A DNA stretch of 47,396 nucleotides from Hoeflea sp. Lineage in GTDB: Bacteria > Pseudomonadota > Alphaproteobacteria > Rhizobiales > Rhizobiaceae. The notes beneath the pieces were generated by a model, which was not told the DNA's origin, did not search any database, and saw only the letters and a program-made list of their open reading frames with translations. Of the stretch, positions 8,878-41,818 are shown piece by piece. A program made the translations under genes and the position numbers. Position 1 is the stretch's first letter, and every line of letters starts with the position of its first letter. The stretch covers positions 1 through 47,396 of the forward strand of contig NZ_NVXQ01000012.1 in NCBI RefSeq assembly GCF_002733955.1, written 5' to 3'.

Positions 8878-8879
8878 TG

Positions 8880-9425: not shown

Positions 9426-9500
9426 TATAAAACCAAAAGTGGCCGGCCTGGCCGCCAGCCACAGTTCGTGTATGTCAGACAGCCACGCGGGGCGGCTGCA

Positions 9501-11455: not shown

Positions 11456-11510
11456 GATGCACCGGTCTCCGGCGTTCCCGACAGGCTATCTAACGGACCC
11501 GTGATCAAGA

Positions 11511-13018: not shown

Positions 13019-13222
13019 CGGATGAACCCCTCATGTGTCCCAGGGCTCATCGCGCAGATCCATAACCGGCGCAGCCCCAGCAAGCATGTCCCGGATTAGG
13101 CCACCTTGCTTGTGCGAAGCTGAAGGTTGCAGGGCGCCGTTCATCAAGCCGACAGATTCAGCTTCACACAAGGCTCAACCCGTAGTGATTGTTTTGCATG
13201 TCATTTATCGCGGCGGGGCACC
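13019..13222. promoter_or_regulatory. divergent promoter region between the DUF1217 gene and motA
   Basis: 204 non-coding bases between two divergent flagellar operons. It must hold promoters for both. I find no convincing sigma70 or sigma54 consensus or palindrome. A GGCGGGG ribosome site precedes motA. Confidence 0.5.
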
Positions 13223-14101
13223 ATGAACATCATTATTGGTTTTGTTATCACTATCGGCTGTGTGCTCGGCGGCTTCATGGCGATGGGCGGGCACATCGAA
13301 GTGCTCAACCAGCCGTTCGAACTCGTCATCATCGGTGGCGCGGCGATCGGCGGTTTCATCATGACCAACCCGGTAAAGACCATCAAGGATACGATTGCCG
13401 CCCTGGGTGAAGCCTTCAAGGGCAAGGTTCCCAAGGAGCGCGAGTATCTCGACACGCTGAGCATTCTCTATTCCCTGATGCGCGACCTGCGCACCAAGAG
13501 CCGCAACGAGATCGAAAGCCACATCGACAATCCGGAAGAATCCGACCTGTTCCTTTCCGCCCCGACGGTGCTGAAGAACAAGGAACTGACCTCTTTCATC
13601 TGCGACTATGTACGGCTGATCATTATCGGCAATGCGCGCCCGCATGAAATCGAAGCGCTGATGGACGAGGAAATCCAGACCATCGCGCAGGACCGCCTAA
13701 AGGCCTATCACGCCCTGAGCACCATGTCGGACGCCTGCCCGGCGATCGGCATTATCGCCGCTGTTCTGGGTGTTATCAAAGCGATGGGAGCGATCAATGA
13801 ATCGCCGGCTGTTCTGGGTGGCCTGATCGGCGCCGCGCTGGTGGGAACCATGCTCGGGATTTTCCTGTCCTACTGCATTTTCAGCCCGATCGCCACGAAT
13901 GTGAAGATCGTGCGGACCAAGCAGAACCGGCTTTACACCATCGTCAAGCAGACCCTGCTGGCCTACATGAACGGTTCGGTTCCGCAGGTTGCTCTCGAGC
14001 ACGGCCGCAAGACCATCTCTTCCTATGAGCGTCCTTCCATCGATGCTGTTGAGCAGGAAATGATGAATCCTGGCGGCGGCGGCGAAGCAAAGGCGGCTTG
14101 A
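13223..14101 (+). CDS. motA: flagellar motor stator protein MotA
   Basis: MotA forms, with MotB, the proton-driven stator. 292 residues from ATG 13223 ([23 protein letters not shown]); a frame open further upstream was rejected because family homology begins here and GGCGGGG lies at ribosome-site distance. Four hydrophobic segments, with the last pair around [17 protein letters not shown] and [20 protein letters not shown], and the family end. motB is not adjacent, as in S. meliloti where motB-motC lie elsewhere in the cluster. Confidence 0.97.
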
Positions 14102-26245: not shown

Positions 26246-28516
26246 TTATCCGGTCGCTGCGAGCATCATGTCAGGGCTAAGCGGCTGACCGCGAGAAGCC
26301 GTGACAACTGCGTCGACATCAAGGATGAGAGCCACTCGACCGTCGCCCAGAATGGTCGCCGCGGCGATACCAGGCACATTGGTGTAGTTGGCTTCGAGGC
26401 TCTTGATGACCACCTGGCGCTGACCCTGGATGGCGTCGACCATGAGCGCGCGCTGACCTCCGCCCTCGGATTCCACCAGCAACGCCACTCCGTCGACCGG
26501 ATTGGCAAGATCGGCGCGGAAGTTGAGGATGTTGCCGACATCGACCAGCGGGCAGAAGGTATCGCGGATGGCGATGAGCCGCTGGCTTGGACCGAAGGAG
26601 TGAATGTCGCTCTTCTCCGGCTGAAGGGTCTCGACGATCGCCGTGAGCGGCACAACCAGCGTCTGGTCGGCAACGGTCACAACCATTCCGTCAAGAACCG
26701 CCAGTGTCAGCGGCAGGCTCATGGTAAAGACCGACCCCTTGCCAGGCTTGGAGGTGATCGAAATCCGCCCTCCCAGCGCCTGAATGGAGCGCTTGACCAC
26801 ATCCATGCCGACGCCACGTCCGGAGATGTCGGAGATCTTGTCGGCAGTCGAGAAGCCGGGATGGAAGATCAGGTTGTCGATATCCTCGTCGCTGAGGTTC
26901 GATTCCGGTGTGATAAGGCCATTCTCGATGGCCTTGGCCTTGACCCGCTCGCGATTGATGCCTGCGCCGTCATCGGCAATCTCGATAACAATCCGTCCGG
27001 AGCGGTGTTTCGCGCTTAGTTTCAGGATGCCTTCGGGGTTCTTGCCGAGCTCGGTGCGTTTTTCCGGACCTTCGAGGCCGTGATCGACGGCGTTTCGGAT
27101 CATGTGGGTCAAAGGTTCGGCGATCTTGTCGATCACCGTCTTGTCGACCTCGGTGTTCTCGCCTTCGGTCACCAGCTTGACGCTCTTGCCGGTCATGTCG
27201 GCAATTTCGCGAACGATACGGCCCATGCGCTGGAATACCGGCTTGACCGGCTGGGCGCGGATGGCCATGACGCTGTCCTGGATTTCCCGGGTCAGCTGCT
27301 GAAGTTCTTCAAGGCCGAGGTTGACGGCGGATGAGCCGCCGCTTTCGTTCTCGACAACGCTCTGCGCCAGCATGGCCTGGTTGATGACCAACTCGCCGAC
27401 CAGGTTGATGAGGCGGTCGACACGGTCCAAGTCCACGCGGATGGTCTGCGGTGCGGCAGGAACCGCGGGTACCGCAGCTTCCTTCTTCTCGGCTTCCGCG
27501 GCGATAGCCTTGGCAGCGAGCGGCATGTTGGCCGGGGCCAGCTGAGCCGGTTCCTGTGCAGCAGGGGCCGCCTCGGGGGCTGCCGTTTCCGTGGCAACGA
27601 CCGGCTCGTCTTCCAGCAGGGAGAGATCAAACGGCACTGCGGCCATCGGCTGTTCTTCGCCCATGGCGTCGGGCGCGGCGAAAGCCTCTTCGTCGGCGCC
27701 AGCCGTGATCTCGACGGTGGAGTCCCATTCGACGAACTCGAACACCTGGCGGATGGCTTCTTCATCGCTTTCGGTTTCAACCCGGATCAGCCAGGAGAAG
27801 TAGGCGCCTTCCGGATCAAGCAGATCCAGCGAAGGCAGATCGTCGGTCTCGCAGCGCACCTGAAGATCGCCCAGCTTGGCGAGTTCGCGCAGGATCAGGA
27901 CTGCTTCATTGCCCTTGGCGTAAAGGTCCGAGCGGGGCTTGAAGCGAACCGTGAAGACCGAAGCTGCAGCATTGATTGCCAGTTCGTCGTCGCCGTCGAT
28001 GCTGTCAAAGCTGAACGGGACCGGCTGGAAGCCGCTGTCGTCGGTCGCAGCCGGCGCCTCTGCTACCGGTGCTTCGGGGGCGGCTTCGGGCTTCGGTGCC
28101 GGGGCAGCCGGGGCGGAAGCGCTGGGCAAGGGCTGTCCCTTGGCATAGGCTTCAAGTTCCGCCACCAGACCCGAGGTACGGGAGGCCTCTACCGTGCCAC
28201 CGTCGCGCGATGCCGCGGTCAGATCCGCCAGCACGTCGGCGGAGCGAAGCATCACCTTGAGCAGGTCCGGCGAAGCCTCAAGCTTGTTGGATCGAACGCA
28301 ATCAAGTGTTGTCTCGAACACATGCGCGAAGGAGACGAGATCATCGAGCCCGAAAGCTCCAGCGCCACCCTTGATCGAATGCACGGCGCGAAAAACCGCA
28401 TTTACCGTTTCCGGATCGGTATCGCCGTCATTGAGTCGGAGTAGACCGGATTCCAGTTCTGCGAGTTGCTCCTCGCATTCCTGGAAAAAGATCTCCTTGA
28501 TTTCATTCATATCCAT
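26246..28516 (-). CDS. cheA: chemotaxis histidine kinase CheA
   Basis: 756 residues: Hpt domain with phospho-acceptor His46 (AVHSIKGGAGAFG), an Ala/Pro/Glu-rich linker (about 130-170), a regulator-binding region, a second Ala/Glu-rich linker (about 310-355), dimerisation helices (VGELVINQAMLAQ), HATPase domain (HMIRNAVDHGLE; DDGAGI; GRGVGMDVVK) and a C-terminal CheW-like domain. Phosphorylates CheY1, CheY2 and CheB. Thirteen bases after cheY1. Confidence 0.97.
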   Translation of the reverse strand: MDMNEIKEIFFQECEEQLAELESGLLRLNDGDTDPETVNAVFRAVHSIKGGAGAFGLDDLVSFAHVFETTLDCVRSNKLEASPDLLKVMLRSADVLADLTAASRDGGTVEASRTSGLVAELEAYAKGQPLPSASAPAAPAPKPEAAPEAPVAEAPAATDDSGFQPVPFSFDSIDGDDELAINAAASVFTVRFKPRSDLYAKGNEAVLILRELAKLGDLQVRCETDDLPSLDLLDPEGAYFSWLIRVETESDEEAIRQVFEFVEWDSTVEITAGADEEAFAAPDAMGEEQPMAAVPFDLSLLEDEPVVATETAAPEAAPAAQEPAQLAPANMPLAAKAIAAEAEKKEAAVPAVPAAPQTIRVDLDRVDRLINLVGELVINQAMLAQSVVENESGGSSAVNLGLEELQQLTREIQDSVMAIRAQPVKPVFQRMGRIVREIADMTGKSVKLVTEGENTEVDKTVIDKIAEPLTHMIRNAVDHGLEGPEKRTELGKNPEGILKLSAKHRSGRIVIEIADDGAGINRERVKAKAIENGLITPESNLSDEDIDNLIFHPGFSTADKISDISGRGVGMDVVKRSIQALGGRISITSKPGKGSVFTMSLPLTLAVLDGMVVTVADQTLVVPLTAIVETLQPEKSDIHSFGPSQRLIAIRDTFCPLVDVGNILNFRADLANPVDGVALLVESEGGGQRALMVDAIQGQRQVVIKSLEANYTNVPGIAAATILGDGRVALILDVDAVVTASRGQPLSPDMMLAATG

Positions 28517-28529
28517 AGGAAAGATCCTG

Positions 28530-28895
28530 TCAGGCAGTTACACGCTCGATGGCTGCAATCAGTTTGGATGGGTCAAAAGGCTTGACAATCCAACCGGTTG
28601 CTCCGGCTTCACGGGCGCGGTTCTTCTTCTCCGCGTCGCTTTCAGTCGTCAGAACCAGAATCGGGATTGCGCGGAAGCGGTCGTTCTGCCGCACGCCTTC
28701 AATGAAGCCGAAGCCGTCAAGCCGCGGCATGTTGATGTCGGTGACGATGACATCGGGATTGGATTCCTCGAGAACTTCCAGTCCCTCGACACCGTCTTCT
28801 GCCTGCACAGTTTCGAAGCCGGCATTGTTCAGGGTGACCAGGAGCATGTTGCGGATCGTCCGCGAGTCATCGACCGTGAGAACCTTCTTCTTCAT
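28530..28895 (-). CDS. cheY1: chemotaxis response regulator CheY1
   Basis: 121-residue receiver domain with Asp53 (VTDINMPRLDG), the N-terminal acidic pair and Lys in IVKPFDPSK. In S. meliloti, which has no CheZ-dependent scheme, CheY1 is the phosphate sink that drains CheY2-P through CheA. Overlaps cheS by 4 bases. Confidence 0.95.
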   Translation of the reverse strand: MKKKVLTVDDSRTIRNMLLVTLNNAGFETVQAEDGVEGLEVLEESNPDVIVTDINMPRLDGFGFIEGVRQNDRFRAIPILVLTTESDAEKKNRAREAGATGWIVKPFDPSKLIAAIERVTA

Positions 28896-29191
28896 TTCAG
28901 TATCTCCTTTGGAAGCAGAGCTTCATCCGAAATTCCTAACAATTGTAGAGTCTTGACGAATACGTCCGAAGCTGGAGCTACCTTGAAGTTCTGTTCCTCG
29001 GCACGCCAGCTCTTGGCAGCGGCAAGCAGCACCTGGATACATTGAGCACCAACACGGCTCACTTCAGATGCGTCGAGATCGATGTCCTCACCCTTGTGGG
29101 CGAGAACCTGTTCATGCAGGCGGCTGGCTGCGTTGAGGTCGAGAACCTCCGGCAGTTTCAGTACCTTCGGTGATGTACCGTCAGTCGACAT
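28892..29191 (-). CDS. cheS: STAS-domain protein CheS
   Basis: 99 residues forming one STAS-like domain (LNAASRLHEQVLAHKGEDIDLDASEVSRVGAQCIQVLLAA). In S. meliloti the gene in this position, cheS, makes a protein that binds CheA and raises its affinity for CheY1-P, speeding signal termination. No phosphorylatable Ser is evident in the usual STAS site (VSRVGAQ). Overlap with cheY1 supports a joint role. Confidence 0.88.
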   Translation of the reverse strand: MSTDGTSPKVLKLPEVLDLNAASRLHEQVLAHKGEDIDLDASEVSRVGAQCIQVLLAAAKSWRAEEQNFKVAPASDVFVKTLQLLGISDEALLPKEILK

Positions 29192-29254
29192 GTCGGCTAT
29201 CCTTACTTGTGAATGGGCGGAAGCTGTTTGCTGCGATCTGTTGCTTAATCAGGC

Positions 29255-30829
29255 TCATCGCGAGAGCCTCCTCTGGACGGGTTGCTGGGCGGATGGCGCA
29301 GAGGCCGGCTCAGCTGACAATTCAACGCTTTGGAATCCGGCATGGCGTTCCTGCTGGTGCAGCCGGATCTGTTCGCCAAGTTCGGTGATGACAAGATGCA
29401 GATCGGCCCCGGTTTCCGCAGCACTTGCGAAGCGCGCCCCGCCGGTGTCGATCGATGCCGCGATCCGGCCCAGGGAAGTCGCCGACCCAGCAATATGATC
29501 GGCCTCGGTCTGGGCCTGCGTGCCAACACCGGCAACGGATTGGGAAATGTTGCCAACCTGATCGACAAGGCCGGAAATCGCAGACCGGGTCTGGTCGACG
29601 AGCGCGACGCCGCGTCCGACATGGGATTTGGCATCCGAGACCAGATCCTTGATTTCATTGGCAGCACCTGCGGACCGCTGCGCAAGGGCGCGGACTTCAG
29701 TGGCGACCACGGCAAAGCCGCGTCCGGCATCGCCGGCACGGGCTGCCTCGATGCCAGCATTGAGCGCCAGCAAATTGGTCTGGAAGGCGATTTCCTCAAT
29801 CACCGAAATGATCTTGCCGATCTGTTCGGCGGAATTTTCGACACCGGCCATCGCATCAATGGCCTCGCCGACAACGCGGTCGCCGGCCTCGGCGCTGGTG
29901 CGGGCATCGGCGATCAGGGTTTCGGCCTTCAATGCGGTCTCGGCCGTCAGGCGTATGCGGCCTGCGATTGCTGCGAGGCCCTCATGCTCTTCACCGACTG
30001 ATTCACCGTGGCGTTCGATTTCGACGCGAACGGCTTCGAGGTCGTCGCTCAGCTGGATTGCCAGCTGCTGGGCTTTCTGCAGGTTGGCTTCGGAACCGGT
30101 GATCAGGTCTTCAAGACGGCTGGCAGCACGATTGAAGTCGTCGGCGGCCTGCTGGTGGATCTCGATGGCCTGAGGTTCGATGCGCACCGAGAGGTCGCCG
30201 TCGGCCAGTCTTGCCAGGGCTGCACCCAGGGTAGCAGCAACGCGCTCGCGTTCTTCGGTGATCTGGCCCTGGCGCTGGCTTGCCATCGTCTTGGCCTGGG
30301 AGTTCAACCGGTGTGATACCTGCATATCAATGTCGATCAGGGTTGCCTTGACGACATCGACCAAGCGGTCGGCGAGAAGGTTGCGGTCGGCCTTGCGCGA
30401 GAACGCCTTGAAAAGGCCTGTCCGGCTTTCATCGACCAGGCGGCGGATGACCCGTTCGAGCACCAGCGCATGTCCGCCAATTGACCAACCGGCTTCCAGC
30501 CCGATGCGCTGGCGAACTTCGCCCAGGATGACAGAGCGGTCGACATAAAGCCCGTCAAAGCGGCCGTCGGCCAGGATTGACCAGTGTGCCACTTCGAGCT
30601 CTTCCAGACGATCGATCTGACGGCTGGAGCTGAACAGAGAGGCAATTTCGGGGGTGTTTTGCAGACGTTCAAAAAAAGCGGAGAGTGCGACGCGGGCTTC
30701 GGCTTCGATCATCGGGCGCATGTCGCGCAGCCGATCATTGCTGTCCTGATCAAGCCTGGTCAGGTCGAGGCGCGCACGCAGGCCGTCAGCCGCAGCTGCA
30801 TCCCTCACCCTTGCTTGAACCTGCCCCAC
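29255..30829 (-). CDS. cytosolic protoglobin-type chemoreceptor (IcpA-like)
   Basis: 524 residues, no membrane helix: an N-terminal protoglobin domain (about 15-160), a helical linker, and a methyl-accepting signalling domain (about 285-480) with the hairpin tip [32 protein letters not shown] written by its flanks at about 345-376. First gene of the che operon, the place of icpA in S. meliloti. Start is GTG 30829 with GGGG upstream; an ATG at residue 37 would cut into the globin fold. The sequence at the proximal heme His position reads VRQRIGL instead of xHxRIGL, i.e. Arg106. No C-terminal CheB/CheR-binding pentapeptide. Confidence 0.92.
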
Positions 30830-31273: not shown

Positions 31274-31384
31274 ATGACTGTTCTTGAAATAGGCGCGATT
31301 CTGATCGCGATTACCACTCTCGCGAGTTTTTCCCTCCTTCTTCGCAAGAGTGAGTCCCAGCGTCGCTTCAAACGAATCTTCTGA
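31274..31384 (+). CDS. possible small membrane protein (36 residues)
   Basis: MTVLEIGAILIAITTLASF followed by SLLL and a basic tail rich in Arg/Lys; stop at 31382-31384. The pattern (one hydrophobic helix, then positive charges) is that of bacterial small membrane proteins, but only a weak GGGA ribosome site lies upstream and no family is recognised. Could be chance. Confidence 0.3.
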   Translation: MTVLEIGAILIAITTLASFSLLLRKSESQRRFKRIF

Positions 31385-31510
31385 GCAATGGTTGGTCTGG
31401 ACAGCAACTGAATTGATGCTGCCGAAGCACCGTTTTATTTACTTGCTCAAGAGCTAACAGTTTAACCCCTGACTGCAAGATCTTGCAATCGAGTGGTGGT
31501 TGGCACCGTT

Positions 31511-31526
31511 CGGCCAGCTTTGGCCG
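31511..31526. terminator. small hairpin after the DUF1513 gene
   Basis: CGGCCA/TGGCCG with a GCTT loop, 48 bases beyond the last gene of the iron operon. No T run on either side, so termination is uncertain. Confidence 0.2.
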
Positions 31527-31573
31527 GCAACAAGATCCTGTCGCAGTCAGCTTCCCCTTCACGGCAACCTCAC

Positions 31574-32650
31574 TCAGGTACGCACAATGTGGTTGTCCCA
31601 GCTATATGCATGAGCGGCCTTGCCAAAACGGCCGGTCTCACTGGAACTGACAAAGCCATGCCGCAGAGCCTGAACACCGCAGGTGCCGGGATAAAACTCC
31701 AAGTTCACCGCTTTTCCGGTCTTTGTATCAAGCTGGACGATCACCCCACTCCTGGGGGATGAGACAGCAAGGGTTCCGCCGTCATGGCCGATCGCCACGG
31801 ATCCGGCATATTTTCCGAGTGCCGTTGCAGCGCGCTTTTCCAGCTCGACCGCAACGAGGCCCCGATCCTGATCAAGCCGGGCAAGGACAGGGACATCGTC
31901 AAGAATATCTCCCTCATACTGGCCACCAATCCAGACCTGATGAGCGGCGTCGATCGCCATGTGACGCAGAGACAAGCGATGCAGATCTGGGGTCAAGGTG
32001 TGGGAGGAGAGCAAAGTCCCGCTTTTTGTCTCGATGAGCGCGATGGACGGCGCCATGGTCGGCAGATTGAGCTTCTGGCGCCCCTGATCCGGATGGGTCC
32101 GGATTCCGCCATTGGCGACACAAAGCGTCCTGCCATCCGGCATCAGCACGATTTCATGCGGCCCAATGCCGTAAGACGGGAACTCGGAAATCCGCCGGAA
32201 ACCAGCGCTGGCATCGTAGATGCCGATGATCCCCTCGCCTGTCGCAAAGGCATTTTCTGCCGCGTAGAGCAGTCTTCCATCTGTGGAAAAGACCCCGTGA
32301 CCGTAGAAGTGCCTGTCTTCAGGCGTGTGAAACACAACAGGCTCGGTGGCTTGGTGCCGGTGCATCGCAACTGCGAAATTGCCGGGACGGCGGGCAAAGG
32401 CTACCAACCACTGAGCGCGAGGGTTTACAGCAAAGCCATGGCCGCGCGCGGGCAAGATGTGGGTCGAAACAATCGCCGCCGCTTGATCCAGAATGGCGAC
32501 GCCAAAATTGCCGTGCTGATCCCTGTAGGCGGAGGCAAACAGGACTTCTGACGCCAGCAGTTTTTCGGCTCCGACCGGCGTCAGGCTGTTCAGCCAGGCA
32601 AGGCCTGCGCCGGCCAGAAATTTGCGCCTTTCAAGGCCAACGCGTTTCAA
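31574..32650 (-). CDS. DUF1513 protein, Tat-exported beta-propeller-like
   Basis: 358 residues with a twin-arginine signal (GLERRKFLAGAGL, about 5-17) and repeated beta-propeller-like segments (HGFAVNPRAQWLVAFARRPGNFA; VFSTDGRLLYAAENAFATGEGIIGIYD; TVAIGHDGGTLAVSSPRSGVIVQ near the end). DUF1513 proteins end the imelysin-DUF1111-imelysin-DUF1513 gene set found in many proteobacteria and linked to iron. Tat export suggests it folds, perhaps with a cofactor, before secretion. Overlaps the imelysin gene by 4 bases; last gene of the operon. Confidence 0.88.
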   Translation of the reverse strand: MKRVGLERRKFLAGAGLAWLNSLTPVGAEKLLASEVLFASAYRDQHGNFGVAILDQAAAIVSTHILPARGHGFAVNPRAQWLVAFARRPGNFAVAMHRHQATEPVVFHTPEDRHFYGHGVFSTDGRLLYAAENAFATGEGIIGIYDASAGFRRISEFPSYGIGPHEIVLMPDGRTLCVANGGIRTHPDQGRQKLNLPTMAPSIALIETKSGTLLSSHTLTPDLHRLSLRHMAIDAAHQVWIGGQYEGDILDDVPVLARLDQDRGLVAVELEKRAATALGKYAGSVAIGHDGGTLAVSSPRSGVIVQLDTKTGKAVNLEFYPGTCGVQALRHGFVSSSETGRFGKAAHAYSWDNHIVRT

Positions 32651-33741
32651 TCGCCATCCCCAAACGAAAAGCCCACCGCGAGACCTCCGGCCTGCGCGAA
32701 TTCCTGATCCAGCCGGTCGATGATGATCTTGATGGCGTAATCCAGATAGAACAGCTTCTCTCTGGTCTCTGGATTGGCGAGTAGTTCGCTGACCGGCGCA
32801 TCAAGGCTCGCGGCGGTTCGAATGGCCTGTCCGAATTCAAAGCGAATGGTGTCTGCGAGCCTTGGCGCCATGGCTTTTGAGACGATCTCGAGGCCGCTTT
32901 CGTCAAACAGCGCTTGCAGACCCTCGAGATTTGCCACGACGGTGCGCAGGGTCATGTCCGAACGCCAGAACAGCGCCGATTTCGGGCGGTCGCGGGCGGC
33001 GTTTTGCTTGTCGAGGAAGGCGCTTAACCGGATGTCTCGAATGGCTTCGAGCCCGTGGATCATCTGGCCGAGCAACAGGTTCAATGCCTCCTGATCGGTT
33101 CTGAACAGCGGATTGTCCGTTCCGGGAGCGAGAAAAGCCGTGACAAGGGCAGAGCCATCCTGCCAACCGGCGATGATTTCACCCGACAGATTGACCAGAT
33201 TGGTGGCTGCGGCCTCGGCAAAAGCGCAACGGTGAGAAGATCGCTGTCCGGTGGCAAGGGCATCACCGCCATTGCCAAACAGCAGGTATTCGAGCGCGCC
33301 AAGACCCTGCATGGCAACGCTTAGCTCTGCGAGAGAATCCACATTGGTGACGGCCTCATTTCCTGAGGCAATCGCTCTCATCACCTGCTTTCTACCGGTG
33401 CCCTTGCGGTCAGGAAAAAACAGGATCCGTTCCAGCCGGTTGTCGGACATGACCGGGCCAAGCCGTAACCATTCCATCCGCGCCCAACGATCCGCCAGCG
33501 CACGAAAGCTATCACGTGCTGACTTCAGATTGAGGGCTGAGGGGGCGCCGCACAGCGTCGTCGTCGCGGTTTCGAGGTCCGATGCGGCAGCCTCGAACGC
33601 TGCATAGCCGGGGCGAATATAGCCCTCAAGCATGTTTTCCAGCACGGGCCCGATGGGCGGACGCGTGGATTGCTCTTCTGCCTTTGCGGCACTCGCGCCG
33701 AGCACCAGAAACAGCAGACAGATGAGGAACCGGTTCATCAC
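32647..33741 (-). CDS. imelysin-family periplasmic protein (His-less motif)
   Basis: 364 residues with a signal peptide (about 1-21) and an imelysin (peptidase M75/IrpA-like) helical-bundle domain. The family GxHxxE motif reads GLGALE (146-151): the His position is Gly148. Imelysins are periplasmic iron-regulated proteins, probably iron binding and not active peptidases. The double ATG at the start overlaps the preceding gene's stop, and it overlaps the DUF1513 gene by 4 bases. Confidence 0.9.
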   Translation of the reverse strand: MMNRFLICLLFLVLGASAAKAEEQSTRPPIGPVLENMLEGYIRPGYAAFEAAASDLETATTTLCGAPSALNLKSARDSFRALADRWARMEWLRLGPVMSDNRLERILFFPDRKGTGRKQVMRAIASGNEAVTNVDSLAELSVAMQGLGALEYLLFGNGGDALATGQRSSHRCAFAEAAATNLVNLSGEIIAGWQDGSALVTAFLAPGTDNPLFRTDQEALNLLLGQMIHGLEAIRDIRLSAFLDKQNAARDRPKSALFWRSDMTLRTVVANLEGLQALFDESGLEIVSKAMAPRLADTIRFEFGQAIRTAASLDAPVSELLANPETREKLFYLDYAIKIIIDRLDQEFAQAGGLAVGFSFGDGD

Positions 33742-35339
33742 AGGCTTTCCAGGAACTTGAGGAGATTGTCGCGCTCAGTTTTGTCCAGGCCGGCAAACCC
33801 GTCGCGCGCATTCTGCGCTTCTCCGCCGTGCCAGAGGATCGCTTCGGTCAGATTGCGCGCACGTCCATCGTGGAGAAAGAAGGTGTGGTCATTGACGATC
33901 TCGGTCAGGCCCGTGCCCCAGAGCGGAGGGGTGCGCCACTCGCGCCCACTGGCAGAGCCGACCTGTTGGCCATCGGCCAGTCCCTCTCCCATGTCATGCA
34001 GCAGAAAATCCGAATAGGGCCAGATCAGCTGAAACCGGTGCGCCTCGGTGGCGGCCCGACGCGAGGTGACAAATTTGGGGACGTGGCAGCTGGTGCAGCC
34101 GAGAGTGTAAAATGTCTGCTTGCCCGCCAGCACCGGGCCATCGTCCACTAGGCGGCGTGCCGGAACCGCCAGGTTCTGCGAGTAGAATGTGACCAGTTCG
34201 AGCACCGGATCGGGTGCCTCGGTCTGTCCCAGGTCCGCCTGCTCACCGGTTGGAAAGGCGAGGCACTCGGCTTGATGCGGTGTACAATCGCCATGACCGG
34301 CCGGGTTGTCTGGCGTCGCAATTCCGATATCCCCGGCAAAAGCATCTGCTGTTTGCTGACGCACCGTCGCGTTCTGGGCCTTCCAGCCAAAGCGTCCGAT
34401 GGCGAGTTTTCCGGTGGCGGGATCGCGGGCCATCGCAACGCGGCCGGACACGCCGTCGCCATCACGGTCATCCGGATCGGCGTGGGCGAGCAGATCCGCC
34501 GGGTGAATGGCTTCGATCAGCCCCATGCCAATCATCTGCGGCGTCATGCGCGGCGACAGCGTGGTCTCCGTGTCCATCGGCCCGTAGCCCAGATCAGCAA
34601 CGCTGTAGTCTGGCCTGCGCAAGGACACCACCGTGCCATCGGCCAGCTCGACAGGCTGCTCCTCATAGGCGATCACCATGCGGCCCTCGGCCTTCAGGCC
34701 AGGTACCGCGAGATCCTGAAGTTGCCCACCGTAAACCGGGTCAGGCAGCGAGGCGACGACAAAATCCTCAAGCGCCTTGCGCTCTTCATCGGTACGGGCC
34801 GGCCGTGCCAGGCGCAGGAACATCGAGGTGGCGTCCGCCGCCCCTTCGGGCGGATGGCCGCGGCCATCCTTGATGTGGCAACTCTGGCATGCCCGGGCGT
34901 TGAAGAGAGGCCCGAGACCATCTGAAGCCAGTGTCGAGGACGGAGATGACACCCAGAGTTTGCGGAACAGGGCGTTGCCGAGATTGAAGGTTTCCTCCTG
35001 TTCGAAGGACAGGTTGGCATTGAATTGCGACAGGGCATCGCGGTTGACAAGCTTTGTCGAGGTGCCGGCGCCGCCCTGCATCCGTTCGAAGCGTTCAGGG
35101 CTTTGAAAATTGCCTGTGGGCCGGACGACCCGTTGCACGCGGGTGCGATCCTTTTCAGTCAAATCATCCCGGATTTGTGGCAAGCCGGCGCCATCGGCTG
35201 CCCACCCTGGACCGGATAAAGCGAACAAGGCTGCAGCAAACAGCAGGGCTGACAGCACAGACAGAACCCCACCTCCGTGGCGGTGGGGGCTGCGGCCAAA
35301 CAATGAAAAGCAGGTGAATAGTGAAAAGTTTTTCGTCAT
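33738..35339 (-). CDS. di-heme DUF1111 protein (thiol-oxidoreductase-like)
   Basis: 533 residues from ATG 35339, with a signal/anchor helix (about 24-48) and two c-type heme sites, CQSCH (151-155) and CTSCH (415-419). An Asp-rich loop DDRDGDG near 290 looks like a calcium site. A start at 35429 in frame is possible but would put 30 residues before the signal. DUF1111 proteins resemble di-heme MauG/peroxidase-type enzymes; in this gene set a role in oxidising iron or reducing a partner in the periplasm is plausible. Overlaps the second imelysin gene by 4 bases. Confidence 0.9.
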   Translation of the reverse strand: MTKNFSLFTCFSLFGRSPHRHGGGVLSVLSALLFAAALFALSGPGWAADGAGLPQIRDDLTEKDRTRVQRVVRPTGNFQSPERFERMQGGAGTSTKLVNRDALSQFNANLSFEQEETFNLGNALFRKLWVSSPSSTLASDGLGPLFNARACQSCHIKDGRGHPPEGAADATSMFLRLARPARTDEERKALEDFVVASLPDPVYGGQLQDLAVPGLKAEGRMVIAYEEQPVELADGTVVSLRRPDYSVADLGYGPMDTETTLSPRMTPQMIGMGLIEAIHPADLLAHADPDDRDGDGVSGRVAMARDPATGKLAIGRFGWKAQNATVRQQTADAFAGDIGIATPDNPAGHGDCTPHQAECLAFPTGEQADLGQTEAPDPVLELVTFYSQNLAVPARRLVDDGPVLAGKQTFYTLGCTSCHVPKFVTSRRAATEAHRFQLIWPYSDFLLHDMGEGLADGQQVGSASGREWRTPPLWGTGLTEIVNDHTFFLHDGRARNLTEAILWHGGEAQNARDGFAGLDKTERDNLLKFLESL

Positions 35340-35446
35340 ACAACGCCGCCGAGCGTTAACATCAGCGAACGTATAAAACCGTTTCTCCGGGACCAAAACC
35401 GCCCCCGGAAATTGTGTCGCAGCTTTCATTGCTGTCTCATGACTGA

Positions 35447-35929
35447 TCAGTCGGCATCCGCCGGTGACGCATTCAACTGGCCATATTTCTCTTCACCCAG
35501 ATTGCCGAGAAGCTCGAGCTGAGTTTCAAGAAAATCGATGTGGCCTTCTTCGTCGGCGATCAGTGCCTCAAACAGGTTCTTGCTGACATAGTCTCCCTCT
35601 TGCTCGCAGATGTCGCGTGACTTGGTGTAGGCGTTCCAGGCATCCTGCTCGCCAGCCAGGTCGCTTTCGAGCACTTCGCGGATGTTCTGGCCGATCCTGA
35701 GCGGCGCAACCGTCTGCAGATTGGGAAATCCGTCGAGGAAGATGATCCTTTCGATGATCTTGTCGGCATGCTGCATTTCTTCAATGCTCTCCGCCCGTTC
35801 CTTCGCAGCCAGTTTCGTGTAGCCCCAGTCGTCAAGCAGGCGGTAGTGCAGCCAGTACTGGTTGACCGCGCCGAGCTCCAGAAACAGGGCTTCGTTCAGG
35901 CATTCGATGACTTTCTTGCTCTTTTTCAT
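35447..35929 (-). CDS. bfr: bacterioferritin
   Basis: Bacterioferritin stores iron as a 24-mer with heme at subunit interfaces. 160 residues; all di-iron ferroxidase ligands are at canonical numbers, Glu18, Glu51, His54, Glu94, Glu127 and His130, and the axial heme ligand Met52 is present. So it should be fully active. Unusually placed inside a periplasmic imelysin operon, 46 bases after bfd and about 107 before the DUF1111 start. Confidence 0.97.
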
Positions 35930-35975
35930 AAACCGTCCGTGTCCTTGTGGTGAAAACGCTCTGCATTTTGCACCA

Positions 35976-36293
35976 TCAGGCCACGAGTGGCGACTGTCTT
36001 TTGGCCGCAGACCTCTTTTTTGCCGTTTCCATACGCAGCCGCTGGTCCGCGATCCGCTTGAGCAGATCCACCACTTTGGGCTCGGGGCTCTGCATCTGGG
36101 CGTGGTAGCGCTGCGTTGTTTCGACGATGATGTCGATCACGCCGGGAAAACAGCCGCAGCATTTTCCGCGCGCGCTCATCGCCTGGTACACCTTCCCCGG
36201 CGTAATCAATTGCCACTCGTCTGCATTGAGGAAGTCCATGACGACGTTCTCAATGTCTTTCTTCGATACAATGTTGCAGCTGCAAACGATCAT
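35976..36293 (-). CDS. bfd: bacterioferritin-associated ferredoxin (Bfd-like)
   Basis: Bfd carries a [2Fe-2S] cluster and reduces the ferric core of bacterioferritin to release iron. 105 residues from ATG 36293 ([18 protein letters not shown]); the open frame extends 174 bases upstream into the imelysin gene, but homology starts at CSC. Cluster ligands Cys4, Cys6 and the CCGC pair are present. It has about 35 extra C-terminal residues, basic ([10 protein letters not shown]), beyond the usual ~65. Ten bases after the imelysin stop, 46 before bfr. Confidence 0.93.
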
Positions 36294-36303
36294 GGGTGTG
36301 CTC

Positions 36304-37578
36304 TCACTGAAAAACTGCGTCAGGGCTGTCGAGACTGTCGGACCCTTCCAAATCGATGGCGCCAAGCTCGAGTGCAGCGATGGCGCGTTCAATCGACCGG
36401 GTCTGCTTGACCAAAGCATCGATCGCCGCCTGAACCGTGGCGTTACCCGCTTCATTGCCGACAGCAATCATCTGGTCATAGGCTTCAACCTTTTCCGCGC
36501 GTTCGACCATCGCCTCCATCGCCTCCACGGTGGCGTCGAGGTCGGCCGAAAGCTCGGCTGCAATGGCGGGATCTTTTTCGGCGAGCAGATCGGCGAGCGA
36601 TGGGCCCGTCATTTCCGAACCGTCCGGCCGGGTGTAGGCGCCGGTATAGGCGGTGCGGATGCCAACGGCGTCATAGCGGTGCGAGTTGTGGGTATTGTCT
36701 GAAAAGCAGTCGTGCTCCTCCTCGGGATCACCGAGCAGCAGGCCAAGCTTCATGCGTTCGCCGGCCAGCTCGCCATAGGACAGAGATCCCATGCCGGTGA
36801 GGATGGTCGACAGGCCGCCGGACACGCCGCTTTCCTGGAGTGCAGCGCGCGCGGCGCCACCAGCCTTCCAGTTGGCAGCCATCTCTTCAAGATCGGTGAC
36901 CAGCAGGTCGCTTGCAGCGCTCAGATATTCACGGCGGCGGTCGCAATTGCCGTTGGTGCAATTCTCGAGGCTGTAATCCGTGACCGGGCGACTGCCGGCT
37001 CCCGGGCCGTTGCCATTGAGATCCTGACCCCAAAGCAGAAATTCGATGGCGTGATAGCCCGAGGCCACATTGGCTTCGATCCCGCCGGCTTCCTGCAGCG
37101 TGCCGGAGATGAACTCCGGGGTGATGGCGCCGGCATCGACGGTCTTGCCGTTGATCCTGATGGACGGGTTGGCAATCACATTGGCTGTAAACAGCGAATT
37201 CTCGTCGCTGTCGGAACCATAGCTCGCATCGACATAGTCGATCAGCCCTTCATCCAGCGGCCAGGCATTCACACGCCCTTCCCAGTCATCGACGATGGCA
37301 TTGCCAAAGCGATAGACCTCGGTCTGCTGATAGGGCACGCGGGCTGAAAGCCAGGCGGACTTTGCAGCCTGCACCGTTTCTTCCGTCGGATTTGCCAGAA
37401 GATCCTCGATCGCCTTGTCCAGCGCCCTGGCAGTTGCCAGCGCATCATCATATTTGGCTTCGGCGACATCGACATAATGGGCAATGACGGCTTCCGGCGT
37501 CACTTCGGCAAGGGCAATGCTGGTCATTGCGGTTGCGGCGGCAAGGCCAAGTCCGAACAGATATGCGAAGCGCTTCAT
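36304..37578 (-). CDS. imelysin-family periplasmic protein (IrpA/ICMP-like)
   Basis: 424 residues from ATG 37578, chosen because it gives a good signal peptide (MKRFAYLFGLGLAAATAM..., cleaved near residue 25); a frame open 36 bases upstream has none. The imelysin domain carries an intact GxHxxE motif, GYHAIE (174-179), thought to bind metal. Related to IrpA of cyanobacteria and ICMP of Pseudomonas, both iron regulated. Thirty-two bases after the Cys-rich gene, ten before bfd. Confidence 0.95.
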   Translation of the reverse strand: MKRFAYLFGLGLAAATAMTSIALAEVTPEAVIAHYVDVAEAKYDDALATARALDKAIEDLLANPTEETVQAAKSAWLSARVPYQQTEVYRFGNAIVDDWEGRVNAWPLDEGLIDYVDASYGSDSDENSLFTANVIANPSIRINGKTVDAGAITPEFISGTLQEAGGIEANVASGYHAIEFLLWGQDLNGNGPGAGSRPVTDYSLENCTNGNCDRRREYLSAASDLLVTDLEEMAANWKAGGAARAALQESGVSGGLSTILTGMGSLSYGELAGERMKLGLLLGDPEEEHDCFSDNTHNSHRYDAVGIRTAYTGAYTRPDGSEMTGPSLADLLAEKDPAIAAELSADLDATVEAMEAMVERAEKVEAYDQMIAVGNEAGNATVQAAIDALVKQTRSIERAIAALELGAIDLEGSDSLDSPDAVFQ

Positions 37579-37610
37579 GGGTGGCGATACTCCGGGTCCT
37601 GCAATCTCAT

Positions 37611-38132
37611 TCAATGGATCGACCCACTCGCGGGAGATCCGGCCAGAGTGGATCTCATGTCGATATCGGTAATCGCGCTGAGCGGGATCGGTGCAAGCCT
37701 GTGGCTGTGGCCGAGCAGGATTGCCGCATAGGCGCTGGCGCTCTCGATCACCTCGACACAGGCGTCGGAACAGGTGAGCAGCTTGGCTGACTGGACCAGG
37801 AGATCCTCATCGCCATGCTGGGCCCCCGAGACCATGCCAAGCACCAGGCACTCGTCGCGGCACAAATGCCCGGCACCGGGCTTGTAGAATCGCAATGGGC
37901 AGGTTGCGCAGGCGCCGAGCTGGCGCACAAGGGCTGCCATGGCATCGAGTGCGACCTGGCCATTGATTGCACCCAGCGCCTTGGCGTGAGCTGACCAAGC
38001 GGCATCCCAGTAGCGGGAATCAGAGTGAGCCAGGCCGGCTACCCAGTTGCGGTAGCCGTTGACGACCAGGTTCTCCGGCTGTTGGCGCAGATAGGCCGCA
38101 GCGGGACAATCGGCACAATCATCATGTTCCAT
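37611..38132 (-). CDS. cysteine-rich protein of unknown function heading the iron operon
   Basis: 173 residues from ATG 38132; the frame opens at a TTG (38159) and has ATGs at 38144 and 38141, but the GGGGA purine run best fits 38132. Not recognised. Eight Cys in four pairs: CADC (6,9), CATC (75,78), CRDEC (91,95), CSDAC (121,125), plus His residues near the C-terminus (GHSH). No signal peptide, so cytosolic; the pattern suggests metal or Fe-S cluster binding. First gene of the operon, closest to the Irr-like box. Could be a sensor, a scaffold or an iron donor for Bfr; no basis to choose. Confidence 0.82.
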   Translation of the reverse strand: MEHDDCADCPAAAYLRQQPENLVVNGYRNWVAGLAHSDSRYWDAAWSAHAKALGAINGQVALDAMAALVRQLGACATCPLRFYKPGAGHLCRDECLVLGMVSGAQHGDEDLLVQSAKLLTCSDACVEVIESASAYAAILLGHSHRLAPIPLSAITDIDMRSTLAGSPASGSIH

Positions 38133-38567
38133 TCGCGCCATCATTCCCCATGGATTCAAACATGAGTATTTCGGTAATGTATCAAGAAACTGGAGTCAAA
38201 CAGTTCAGTTTAGAACGCCTCCAAACTATCGGATTCTGCTTGATGAGAGTGTGCATCAACTCATTGTATTTTTTTGTTTTTTCTATCGACTGAGCTTGCG
38301 AAATCGGTGTCGTAATATCTGCTGATCAGACCGCTCAGGCCGGAGACATCGTTGCAGACGGAGTTATGCGATGACCGGACCGAGATTTCGGCAGCCAGTC
38401 GCCCGGCCGAACATGTTTGTAAAATGCCGTAGAGGCCCGGCGCGCGAAATCGAGGCTCCGATCCCTGGGCTGAGAGTCCGCTGAGCGAAAGTCCGCATGG
38501 CCGGCTGCGGGTCAGCTGCGGCAACTGATCCAATGCCGGCAGCGCCCGGTCGCGAAAAGACGTCTGT
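38133..38567. other. intergenic region between iron operon and marR
   Basis: About 435 bases. Its left part is the promoter region of the iron operon with the Irr-like box; TTGATG/CATCAA (38240-38245 and 38254-38259) followed by a T-rich run on the plus strand lies beside it. The rest, downstream of marR, shows no supported gene. Confidence 0.55.
38209..38225. promoter_or_regulatory. candidate Irr box (iron control element)
   Basis: TTTAGAACGCCTCCAAA matches the rhizobial Irr consensus TTTAGAA-N3-TTCTAAA at 12 of 14 fixed positions and extends to a longer palindrome (AGTTT...AAACT). It lies about 77 bases upstream of the Cys-rich gene. Irr is the heme-responsive Fur-family regulator of Hyphomicrobiales that represses iron-using and storage genes when iron is scarce. 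Confidence 0.6.
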
Positions 38568-39083
38568 CTAGATAGGATCGATATTGGTGAGCATCTGCCG
38601 CATCACCCGCAGGAAGACATCAAGATCTTCGGGCGATACGCCTGCGACCAGTTCATTTTCACAGGACAGGGCAACCGACAACAACTCGTCATGCGTCTTC
38701 AGGCCTGCTTCTGAGAGCCGCCAGAGCCGTTTGCGGGAATCATTCGAGGGTTGCTCGAAGCTGAGCAAGCCTTTCTGCAGCAGGTGTTTCAGTGCGCGGC
38801 TGACGGCGGCCTTGTCCAGGCGAATGACGTCGCAGACCCGGCTTGCGGTGATACCGGGCTCGATGTTGAGCATGGCAATTACCCGCCACTCCACAATTCC
38901 AAGGCCGAAATCACTGCGATAAATGGTTGACGTCTTGCGGCCCCAGGCATTGCTGACAGCATTGAGCAGAAACGGCGCGTAATGGGCAATATCGAGGATT
39001 TCCACCCCGTCGCGAAGCCGGGTAGGATTCGCAATGCGCGCGTCGGGCTTTCTGTCTTTGAGTGCCTGCGTCAAGCTTTTCAC
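38568..39083 (-). CDS. MarR-family transcriptional regulator
   Basis: 171 residues with a winged helix-turn-helix (about 62-130: VEWRVIAMLNIEPGITASRVCDVIRLDKAAVSRALKHL by its flanks) and the dimerisation helices at both ends. MarR proteins usually bind aromatic acids or their CoA esters and release palindromic operators. It is the last gene of the livK-P450 operon, two bases after the reductase, so it is probably self-regulated through the twin palindromes upstream of livK. Confidence 0.92.
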   Translation of the reverse strand: MKSLTQALKDRKPDARIANPTRLRDGVEILDIAHYAPFLLNAVSNAWGRKTSTIYRSDFGLGIVEWRVIAMLNIEPGITASRVCDVIRLDKAAVSRALKHLLQKGLLSFEQPSNDSRKRLWRLSEAGLKTHDELLSVALSCENELVAGVSPEDLDVFLRVMRQMLTNIDPI

Positions 39084-39085
39084 CT

Positions 39086-40264
39086 CTAGGTCGAGGAGAC
39101 CTGATACCCTTGGCTTTTCAGTTTGTCACGTGTCGGCGGCGCGCCGGATGCCAAAAGCTTGCGCGCCATCATGTGGGTGCGGGGGTCATTGACCGTTTCA
39201 ACCGCTGAAAGAACCTCGCCGGCAAACCGCAGCACCGCGCCATCCTCCCGCGAAACCTCGTCATGCTCGGGGATTGCAAAGCCCGCGATCTGGAGTTTGC
39301 TGTCGCCCTGATTGGACCAGAACCACGGAACGGCGGCGTAGCTGTCCGGTGTCTTTTTGGCCAGCCTGCGGGCGATCAGCCGGGCATGGTCGGTCGCCGC
39401 CTGAACACTCTCCAGCCGGACCAGCAACCCGGTGGCTGGATCCGGAAAGGCTGCACAATCACCGAGCGCCGAGATCATCGGATCGGAGGTCAGCAGTTGC
39501 GCATCGGTGCGCACACCGTTTTCGGTCTCAAGCCCCGCCTCTGCCGCCAGTTCGCTGTTGGGTCGCACTCCGGCCGCCAACACGACCAGATCGGCGGATA
39601 CGGTCTCGCCACTGGCCAGCACGATTCCCGTGTCTGTGACTTCGGTCACCGGCGCGCCCAACAGAACCGTGGTGCCCATGTCGCGGTGCATGGCCAGAAA
39701 CCGCTCCGACATCGCCTGTGAGACCACCCGCGCCATCAGCCGCAGCGCGGCTTCGGCAACGGTCACTTCCAGTCCCAGCCCCCGCGCCACCGCGGCGAAT
39801 TCAAGCCCGATGAAACCACCGCCGATGATCGCCACGCTTTGCGCCTCCGTCATCGCCTTTCGCAAGGCTCCGGCATCATCCAGCGTGCGCAGGTCAAGCG
39901 CCCGGTCAAGGCCGGGAATCGGCGGCCGCAGATTGCGTGTGCCGGTGGCGAGGATCAGGTGATCATAGCCGAGCGTGCCGTTTTCATGCACCACGCGTTG
40001 CGCCGCGCGGTCGATCTGCGTGACCTTGCAGCCCAGCAGGAGAGTGATGTTCTGGTCGTCAAAGAAGCTTTGCGGGCGCAGGCGCAACGCATCGGCCTCA
40101 CCTGTCTTGAGATAGTCCTTTGACAGCGGGGGACGCTGGTAGGGCAGATGCTGTTCCGCGCCAATCAGGGTGATCGGCCCGGAATGCCCTTCCTGGCGCA
40201 GGCTGACAGCGGCCTGCAATCCGCCCTGCCCGGCTCCGACAATGACGATGTGCGCTGTCGTCAC
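39086..40264 (-). CDS. FAD-dependent NAD(P)H:ferredoxin reductase
   Basis: 392 residues of the putidaredoxin-reductase type: FAD motif GAGQGG (about 9-14), the PYQRPPLSK segment, NAD motif GGGFIGLE (about 148-155), the ATGxR motif and the second FAD motif ALGDCAAF. Passes electrons from NAD(P)H to the adjacent [2Fe-2S] ferredoxin. Its ATG overlaps the ferredoxin stop by 4 bases, a strong sign that the two work together with the P450. Confidence 0.94.
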   Translation of the reverse strand: MTTAHIVIVGAGQGGLQAAVSLRQEGHSGPITLIGAEQHLPYQRPPLSKDYLKTGEADALRLRPQSFFDDQNITLLLGCKVTQIDRAAQRVVHENGTLGYDHLILATGTRNLRPPIPGLDRALDLRTLDDAGALRKAMTEAQSVAIIGGGFIGLEFAAVARGLGLEVTVAEAALRLMARVVSQAMSERFLAMHRDMGTTVLLGAPVTEVTDTGIVLASGETVSADLVVLAAGVRPNSELAAEAGLETENGVRTDAQLLTSDPMISALGDCAAFPDPATGLLVRLESVQAATDHARLIARRLAKKTPDSYAAVPWFWSNQGDSKLQIAGFAIPEHDEVSREDGAVLRFAGEVLSAVETVNDPRTHMMARKLLASGAPPTRDKLKSQGYQVSST

Positions 40265-40584
40265 ACCTGCTCCTCCGGCACGTGCACGCGCAATCCGTCA
40301 TGGGCCTCGGTCAGGGTGATCTGGCAGGAGAGGCGCGACGTTTCCTTCATTTCGGAGGCGGCACAATCGAGCATGTCTTCTTCGCTCTCACTGCGTGAGC
40401 CGGTCTTGCCGAGCCAGTCCTCCGCCACGTAGACATGGCAGGTGGCGCAGGCCATCGAGCCGCCGCATTCCGCGATGATGCCCGCGATATTGTTGTTGAG
40501 CGCCACTTGCATCACGCTTTCACCCGCGGCGGCGTCTACAGTGGTTTCGCTTCCGTCCGGCTGGATGTAGGTCACCTTCACCAT
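40261..40584 (-). CDS. [2Fe-2S] ferredoxin of adrenodoxin/putidaredoxin type
   Basis: 107 residues with cluster ligands Cys40, Cys46, Cys49 and Cys87 (C-x5-C-x2-C-x37-C), the spacing of vertebrate-type ferredoxins that serve P450s. Ten bases after the P450 gene and overlapping the reductase gene; expected to shuttle electrons to the P450. Confidence 0.95.
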   Translation of the reverse strand: MVKVTYIQPDGSETTVDAAAGESVMQVALNNNIAGIIAECGGSMACATCHVYVAEDWLGKTGSRSESEEDMLDCAASEMKETSRLSCQITLTEAHDGLRVHVPEEQV

Positions 40585-40594
40585 CAGCTCTCTC

Positions 40595-41818
40595 CTATTT
40601 CGCGATCAGTTTCAAAGGCAGCCTGTCGAGCGCCCGGATAGCATTGTTGGGTCGCCAGACGGCCTCGCCGGCCGGTTCGATCCGGGCCACCTTGCGCGCC
40701 ATGACGCTGAGCAAGGCCTCCAGTTCGCCGCGGGCAATGTTCTGCCCGACGCAGCCGTGGATGCCCGCGCCGAAGGCCATGTGGCCGACCGGCCTGCGGT
40801 CGATCCGGAACACCTCCGGGTCACCCCATTTGTCCGGATCCATGTTGGCGGCCCCGAGCACGCAGAGCACCTTGGCGCCTTCGGGCACCGGGTAATCCGC
40901 GATCTCCGTGTCCAGATTGGCGGTGCGGGCGAAGGTATGGACCGGAGAGGTGTAGCGCAGAACCTCTTCGAAAGCCGGCCGAGCCAGCTTCGGATCCTCC
41001 AACAATGCGTCCCACTGGGACGGGTTCTGCGAAAAGCACCAGAGCGCGTTTCCGATGCCGGTTACCGTGGTGTCGACGCCCGCCGACAGGAAAGACCGCA
41101 CCAGCATGCCGGCTTCTTCGGACGTGATCTCGCCTGCGTCCGCAGCCGCATAGACCATTGCGCCAAGACCGTCTTCCGTCAGCCGGTCGCGGGCGCAGGC
41201 CGCGGTGATCCAGCCACCGACTTCCGGCGCACGCTGCATGGCCGCACGGCGCCGGGCGTTGTCCGGGCCGACCGCGTTGAAGACGATGGCGCCGTAATCG
41301 ACCAGATGCCTGGTGTTGACATCCTTCATGCCGACCGCTTTCGGAAAGACGGTTGTCGGAAAGGCTTCCGCCAGATCCACGACACCCTCGATTTCGGATT
41401 GCTGGAGAAGCCTGTCGACGATCGCCTCGGCTGCGGCGGTGAAGTCGTCCATCAGCGTACGCACCACCTTCGGAGACAGCGCCTTGGACATGACTTTGCG
41501 GGTCTTGGTATGGTCCGGTGGATCGACTTCGAGGATGATGGACGGCGGCCGCCAGGGCTTCTCGAGCTTGAAGTCGTCCATGCCGATGCCGCGCGAAGAG
41601 ACGAAGTTTTCGTGGTCGGAAAAGGTCTTGCGGGTTTCCTCGTAACGTCCGACCGCGAGAACTGAATAACGCGGGATGAACACCACCGGCCCCGCCTCGC
41701 GCAGCGCGGTGTAGAACGGGCCCGGATCCAGCAGCGTCTCCTCGGAATAGGGATCGACGTCGAAGACGGGAATGGCGCTGTCCGGGGTGAGCGGGCGGTG
41801 GCCCTCGATAAGGCGCAT
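40595..41818 (-). CDS. cytochrome P450, CYP199-like
   Basis: 407 residues, soluble class I P450. Heme motif FGAGIHGCVG with ligand Cys356, ExxR Glu285-Arg288, oxygen-activating I-helix AGVDTT (about 246-251). From memory the N-terminal third (SSRGIGMDDF, EKPWRPPSIILEVDPPDHT) closely follows CYP199A2/A4 of Rhodopseudomonas palustris, which oxidise or O-demethylate para-substituted benzoates. The substrate here is inferred. Eleven bases after livF. Confidence 0.93.
   Translation of the reverse strand: MRLIEGHRPLTPDSAIPVFDVDPYSEETLLDPGPFYTALREAGPVVFIPRYSVLAVGRYEETRKTFSDHENFVSSRGIGMDDFKLEKPWRPPSIILEVDPPDHTKTRKVMSKALSPKVVRTLMDDFTAAAEAIVDRLLQQSEIEGVVDLAEAFPTTVFPKAVGMKDVNTRHLVDYGAIVFNAVGPDNARRRAAMQRAPEVGGWITAACARDRLTEDGLGAMVYAAADAGEITSEEAGMLVRSFLSAGVDTTVTGIGNALWCFSQNPSQWDALLEDPKLARPAFEEVLRYTSPVHTFARTANLDTEIADYPVPEGAKVLCVLGAANMDPDKWGDPEVFRIDRRPVGHMAFGAGIHGCVGQNIARGELEALLSVMARKVARIEPAGEAVWRPNNAIRALDRLPLKLIAK

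Follow-up and report, generated by a model that had tools for sequence, protein, structure and literature searches.

We analyzed a gene cluster of Hoeflea sp. in which the genes for a bacterioferritin (bfr) and a bacterioferritin-associated ferredoxin (bfd) lie inside a set of imelysin genes, behind a candidate promoter with an Irr box. The window, i.e., the whole stretch of 47,396 nucleotides that was analyzed, is an entire contig (G000:C5) of a 4.86-Mb genome rated 100% complete. Between positions 31574 and 38132, on the minus strand, it carries seven packed genes, namely a head gene, imelysin 1, bfd, bfr, a DUF1111/DHOR di-haem oxidoreductase gene, imelysin 2, and a DUF1513 gene (Table 1). 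Gene calls and family models confirmed the proposal of the first-pass annotation, made from the sequence alone, that an imelysin-DUF1111-imelysin-DUF1513 set is interrupted here by bfd and bfr. The genome contains two M75 matches, both within the cluster.

Table 1. Features of the Hoeflea sp. cluster and of the region upstream of its head gene, in window coordinates
Feature	Position	Strand	Remarks
Irr box/iron control element (ICE) TTTGGAGGCGTTCTAAA	38209-38225	-	12/14 positions of TTTAGAA-N3-TTCTAAA
Candidate -35 hexamer TTGACT	38194-38199	-	9 bases downstream of ICE; -10 weak
Head gene	37611-38132	-	173 amino acids; alternative starts 38141, 38144, 38159; homologues beside imelysin operons
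Imelysin 1 (IcmP type)	36304-37578	-	PF09375, 295 bits; N-terminal signal peptide read from sequence
bfd	35976-36293	-	PF04324, 28.9 bits (cut-off 26); [2Fe-2S] ferredoxin with C-terminal tail
bfr	35447-35929	-	TIGR00754, 186.7 bits (cut-off 125.55)
DUF1111/DHOR di-haem oxidoreductase	33738-35429, or ATG start 35339	-	PF06537, 306 bits; signal read from sequence
Imelysin 2 (GxxxxE type, PA4372-like)	32647-33741	-	PF09375, 159 bits
DUF1513 protein	31574-32650	-	PF07433, 343 bits; twin-arginine translocation (Tat)-like N-terminus RRKFLAG read from sequence

The first four junctions measured 32, 10, 46, and 17 bases (107 for the fourth if the ATG of the di-haem gene is used), and the last two were 4-base overlaps, provided that the GTG/TTG starts hold (1 base if imelysin 2 begins at its ATG). 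This is in good agreement with the gaps of 10 to 110 bases followed by two 4-base overlaps that had been announced. Between 31300 and 38500, no prominent internal terminator was found (5 terminator-like sites versus 6.9 expected from shuffles), and no prominent internal promoter appeared in a consensus scan that missed the candidate head promoter too. Because the genes are closely spaced and no credible terminator separates them, they probably form one transcription unit, as the first-pass annotation had suggested.

Upstream of the head gene lies an Irr box, or iron control element (ICE), whose consensus we take to be TTTAGAA-N3-TTCTAAA. It was the only match at two mismatches in the window, where 0.02 would be expected, and TTTRGANNNNTTCTAAA had a single match without mismatch in the genome, at the operon head. 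Both irrA (NF045678, 214 bits) and rirA are present, and an ICE at the promoter together with an irr gene in the genome would, at the sequence level, assign the operon to the Irr regulon. Since the window contains no second box reaching 11/14, no box lies directly before bfr. RirA-box-like sites (TGA-N9-TCA) were seen near several operon heads. Two of them occur in the window, at -205 and -126 if the end of the sequence preceding the head gene is taken as reference, and both lie away from the candidate promoter.

We compared this promoter region in 14 operon heads, i.e., the window, 12 named loci with a head gene found by tblastn, and Hoeflea halophila (L053). In 14/14, the ICE ended exactly 9 bases before TTGAC, with box scores of 10 to 13 out of 14 (10/14 in L062). 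The set includes three loci consisting of head gene, bfd, and bfr with no imelysin in the locus (L060, L062, and L105) as well as H. halophila, where bfd-bfr is accompanied by a DHOR remnant; it left out L092, with a weaker head-gene homologue, and L070, with a fragment, both of which were found by a later profile search. We also scanned 17 of 29 further imelysin loci (all but L039, L043, L044, L048, L136-L139, and L141-L144). Ten of them have a box-like site of at least 11/14 within 1 kb upstream, and four reach 13.

The position of the box bears on the sign of control. All statements from the literature made here refer to excerpts of the papers cited. According to a review, Irr represses or activates depending on the position of the ICE, and rhizobial bfr is repressed by Irr in low iron (PMC7762939). 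In Rhodobacter sphaeroides, the transcription start of mbfA falls inside the box, which was taken as repressor-like (PMC3413700). With the operon box lying upstream of the candidate -35 hexamer, Irr would act as an activator here. Genome-wide, a relaxed pattern gave one exact match, at the operon, and four places at one mismatch. The latter lie upstream of rirA (NF008886, 273 bits), of a cysteine desulfurase gene (PF00266, under the cut-offs of the named NCBIfam models), of a gene for an Nfu protein (PF08712, PF01106), and of mbfA (NF045676, 566 bits). As read by eye, the nfu, suf, and mbfA boxes directly follow a -10-like hexamer, whereas the operon box precedes the -35; the rirA promoter was not assignable. 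Under classical control, Irr would instead repress the operon in low iron and iron would derepress it, so that Bfr stores surplus and the imelysins handle periplasmic iron at high iron. Indeed, iron derepresses bfr and mbfA in Bradyrhizobium japonicum, where Irr represses sufA (PMC4902296), and relatives of mbfA and the suf genes also carry boxes in this genome. However, the fixed distance of 9 bases between the operon ICE and the candidate -35, as opposed to the boxes that follow a -10, speaks against such control, and so do the induction of the R. sphaeroides operon by iron limitation (see below) and the description of the Pseudomonas aeruginosa imelysin operon as Fur regulated. We therefore consider classical control unlikely.

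The bfr product passes the curated bacterioferritin model, and residues E18, E51, M52, H54, E94, E127, and H130 are all present. We take Met52 to be the haem-binding residue and the Glu and His residues to be the ferroxidase ligands. The roles of the Glu/His ligands are described in PMC7762939. This bfr is the sole TIGR00754 match in the genome; one further PF00210 protein fits Dps best, yet falls under the cut-off of the Dps model. The bfd product has a BFD [2Fe-2S] domain with four cysteines (C4, C6, C45, and C48) that were invariant among 9 sequences. Its nearest relatives by tblastn were those of H. halophila (89%) and of H. marina and H. alexandrii (84%), and a PDB search by sequence with Bfd found no chain. 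Two genomes carry bfd without any PF00210 ferritin-superfamily match, namely, G069 (L046), which is rated 100% complete and whose bfd follows imelysin 1 and precedes the di-haem gene in the imelysin operon, and G312 (L101), a metagenome-assembled genome (MAG) for which this negative comes without a completeness figure. This hints that Bfd may have work beyond Bfr.

The first-pass annotation had presented the combination of these genes as undescribed, which was not borne out. RSP_1544 and RSP_1543 of R. sphaeroides, both labeled hypothetical in the papers, are presumably imelysin 2 and DUF1513 proteins, and the order imelysin-bfd-bfr-di-haem-RSP_1544-RSP_1543, by consecutive locus tags, is like that of Hoeflea. 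The R. sphaeroides operon hemP-irpA-bfd-bfr has been published (PMC4618611, PMC3413700), and differential RNA sequencing (dRNAseq) strongly suggests its cotranscription with RSP_1545-1543 (PMC4618611). It is controlled by IscR via an Iron-Rhodo-box, and the operon contains another such box internally (PMC4618611). Under iron limitation, irpA (RSP_1548), bfd (RSP_1547), and bfr (RSP_1546) rose 4.05-, 2.71-, and 1.99-fold in the wild type and 19.66-, 12.31-, and 4.52-fold in an irr mutant (PMC3413700). Opposite iron responses of bfd-bfr and the imelysin genes, which had been named as a possible outcome, were thus not seen in this one organism, where all three genes rise. The two systems differ in that R. 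sphaeroides has hemP first, IscR and the Iron-Rhodo-box, and a second bfr elsewhere, whereas Hoeflea has another head protein, an Irr box, a single bfr, and both Irr and RirA in its genome. In Hoeflea, Pfam gave no match for the first gene of normal length (small open reading frames [ORFs] were not scanned for HemP). The Hoeflea cluster is therefore mostly a further example of a published gene order, with informative regulatory detail. The R. sphaeroides excerpts contain no discussion of why this gene combination exists.

These data also bear on an oxidative-stress logic, in which the operon would combine iron-sequestering and peroxidase-like functions and iron limitation would induce it largely through reactive oxygen species and OxyR. 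In R. sphaeroides, iron limitation induces bfd and irpA more strongly when oxygen is present, and this response requires OxyR (PMC4176601), and bfd tracks the H2O2 pattern of katE (PMC3413700). Furthermore, on a Tateyamaria omphalii plasmid (L136), a gene annotated as Dps (8058-8528), encoded on the opposite strand, separates imelysin 1 from the di-haem gene and so occupies the bfd-bfr slot. However, what is conserved here is an Irr box (OxyR sites were not looked for), and one R. sphaeroides bfr, which of the two being unstated, responds to iron limitation independently of oxygen. We regard this explanation as decidedly improbable.

Other known systems resemble the cluster in part. PA4370-PA4373 of P. 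aeruginosa likewise comprises imelysin, DUF1111, and imelysin and is Fur regulated, and two imelysin classes, GxHxxE and GxxxxE, have been described for it (PMC3143127); it differs in its regulator and in that the excerpts name no bfr or bfd in the operon. Standalone rhizobial bfd-bfr pairs share the Bfr and Bfd families, and many have an ICE nearby, upstream of bfd or between bfd and bfr, but no imelysin was found within up to 9 kb on each side (some contigs being shorter). EfeUOB similarly pairs an imelysin-domain protein with a haem peroxidase-like partner, whereas the seven genes include no EfeU permease (the rest of the genome was not searched for one).

We then asked how widespread the interleaved order is, reading adjacency by hand from coordinate tables and checking gene content by tblastn in 19 other genomes and 10 of 35 plasmid records. 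The order sample comprised 121 genomes, 74 with an M75 match and 95 with a TIGR00754 match. In 9 of the 74 imelysin-bearing genomes, bfr lies on the same strand inside the imelysin cluster, and in 9/9 it is the only TIGR00754 match of its genome. Seven of these (G000, G097, G060, G105, G029, G100, and G056) show imelysin 1, bfd, bfr, di-haem gene, imelysin 2, and DUF1513; in G008 no di-haem gene was found, and in G007 imelysin 1 is truncated and the di-haem gene broken. In G004, G055, G025, and G110, bfd-bfr is a divergent neighbor of the imelysin cluster. In the class sample of 192 genomes, bfr was beside imelysins in none of the 40 imelysin-bearing genomes other than the window. A scan of named loci with the Bfd query, which counts Bfd loci only, kept 80 loci out of 511 relatives, some on short contigs. 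The full seven-gene set was present in 9/80 (Hoeflea, 3; Ahrensia, 3; Oricola, 1; a Phyllobacteriaceae MAG, 1; Salaquimonas, 1), bfd-bfr without any other operon gene at 1e-4 in 62, bfd alone in 5, head gene-bfd-bfr in 3 (Oceaniradius once and Roseitalea twice), and bfd-bfr with a di-haem remnant in 1 (H. halophila). Two of the 10 fetched plasmid records with an imelysin match were interleaved (Pseudorhodobacter turbinis and Phaeobacter sp. G2) and eight were not; the Phaeobacter record is annotated as hemP, peptidase, porin, (2Fe-2S)-binding, bfr, c-type cytochrome, imelysin, and DUF1513. The arrangement thus recurs in Hyphomicrobiales, where the first-pass annotation had advised searching, and also in Rhodobacterales, and is not unique to one genome. 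Because it recurs in other genera, the gene order is beyond chance.

Some loci were noted for their state or content. L040 has a truncated imelysin 1 and a broken di-haem gene, with the matches to bfd and bfr covering most of each gene, and is probably decaying. On pSymB of Sinorhizobium meliloti (L142), imelysin 1, the di-haem gene, and imelysin 2 (7402-13906) occur without bfr, and a DUF1513 match missing from the listed annotation lies beyond a corA gene.

A single recent origin of interleaving was rejected. In the imelysin tree, the interleaved state is scattered; the tree holds 57 of 68 sequences, the 11 left out being further copies from genomes already included and G012 appearing twice as identical rows. 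Nine changes of state are needed on it, and its well-supported branches force at least eight. Similarly, a quick Bfr tree, with support from the Shimodaira-Hasegawa-like approximate likelihood ratio test (SH-aLRT) only, needs 14 changes, with at least four forced by well-supported branches; it holds 107 of 157 extracted rows after removal of duplicates, with 18 standalone rhizobial loci kept. Hoeflea itself shows several states: the order is interleaved in the window, L055, L056, and L057, whereas in H. marina the imelysins and bfr are about 0.5 Mb apart on one contig, with no box before bfd, and no M75 match exists in the genome of H. halophila, which retains the operon promoter before bfd-bfr. 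This pattern would suit the absence of functional coupling, i.e., two iron gene sets, both useful in low iron, that share a promoter while their adjacency drifts, as would the high proportion of named loci with bfd-bfr alone. On the other hand, same-strand bfd-bfr always sits between imelysin 1 and the di-haem gene (save in G008, and with a porin before bfd in Phaeobacter), mostly right behind imelysin 1, and the interleaved bfr is the sole one throughout the order sample, so that we find a lack of coupling somewhat unlikely. Because bfd-bfr occupies the same slot, an old arrangement that would have been dismantled many times is attractive, the trees themselves not separating gains from losses.

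The remaining products of the cluster are a head protein and the exported proteins. The head protein had no Pfam or NCBIfam match at 0.001, and a fold search gave no convincing PDB match to its AlphaFold2 model, which is all-helical (predicted local distance difference test [pLDDT], 85; predicted template modeling score [pTM], 0.83). Its homologues adjoin imelysin 1, on the same or the opposite strand, and weak homologues come after hemP in Tateyamaria and Roseivivax plasmids (E values of 7e-7 and 2e-6). It had been called Cys-rich, which stood for the 13 closer sequences of the Irr-box group, where C75, C78, and C121 do not vary and C125 hardly does, but not for 9 broader sequences, which share no invariant cysteine; the four residues are a possible candidate metal site. 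In L070, a 71-amino-acid fragment of the head gene precedes bfd-bfr (8633, 9429) and an Irr box lies just before bfr, probably reflecting decay. Imelysin 1 contains the GxHxxE motif as GYHAIE, typical of IcmP-type M75 proteins, and matches 7xrx, an insulin-cleaving metalloproteinase outer membrane protein, at 412 bits. In imelysin 2, the motif is GLGALE, the His being lost, as in the GxxxxE (PA4372/IPPA) class. The DUF1111/DHOR protein has two CxxCH motifs, at 181 and 445, in keeping with a di-haem protein. By ORF reading, the upstream neighbors on the minus strand (38568-41818) appear to encode a MarR-type regulator, a ferredoxin reductase, a [2Fe-2S] ferredoxin, and a cytochrome P450-like protein, and those downstream (26246-30829, minus strand) are chemotaxis-like, namely, CheA-like (26246-28516), a response regulator (28530-28895), and methyl-accepting chemotaxis protein-like (29255-30829).

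Overall, we place just on the probable side the reading that the cluster is an iron-starvation operon, activated through Irr when iron is low and encoding periplasmic iron-handling proteins together with the sole Bfr and Bfd. When haem or iron is low, apo-Irr would bind the ICE just upstream of the -35 and activate the operon. Judging from their families, the exported proteins (two imelysins, the di-haem DUF1111 protein, and the DUF1513 protein) would bind periplasmic iron and alter its redox state for import. The same transcript would yield Bfr and Bfd, giving the cytosol a ferroxidase that buffers Fe2+ as it enters and a partner reductase for its release, and the only Bfr would be a short-term buffer in scarcity more than a store for plenty. 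Gene content and order, their recurrence, the conserved box, and the presence of Irr and RirA are observed, and Irr activation, a single transcript, and functional coupling of the two halves are what we infer.

Several points weigh against this reading. The ICE-N9-TTGAC rule looks local to this group, since only L045, an imelysin operon without bfr, has the identical layout among the 17 further imelysin loci. The consensus scan of 31300-38500 returned no promoter-like site, the candidate head promoter included (2.3 expected in shuffles), and the hexamers at every ICE site were read by eye. The relaxed pattern gave 8 strand matches (5 places) versus 4 for a backwards control, so that single one-mismatch hits are not strong. 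In front of many standalone rhizobial bfr genes, an ICE likewise precedes a hexamer, TCGACA, by a few bases, so that box position may not tell whether Irr activates or represses. Moreover, bfr-bfd is frequently separate from imelysins. Finally, in the R. sphaeroides excerpts the controller is IscR, with OxyR, and induction does not need Irr, and the second bfr, RSP_3342, shows no iron response (1.01; PMC3413700).

Bacterioferritin is usually viewed as a store for surplus iron, and rhizobial bfr has been reported to be switched off by Irr in low iron. If Irr activates the operon in low iron, as the promoter layout suggests, the sole bfr of Hoeflea would be induced by starvation, contrary to this reported rule. 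We tentatively extend this to Hoeflea and its relatives, where it is possible, if on the doubtful side, that Irr represses mbfA, nfu, and suf through boxes overlapping the start and activates the sole Bfr/Bfd through a box upstream of the -35, making Bfr a scarcity protein. Whether Irr activates or represses the sole bfr is the question most worth pursuing, and Hoeflea offers a natural series in one genus, with the cluster interleaved, split, or deprived of its imelysins. A sole bfr on a probable starvation promoter, and the same order in Rhodobacter under another regulator, suggest that a role of Bfr and Bfd in scarcity has been kept across control circuits.

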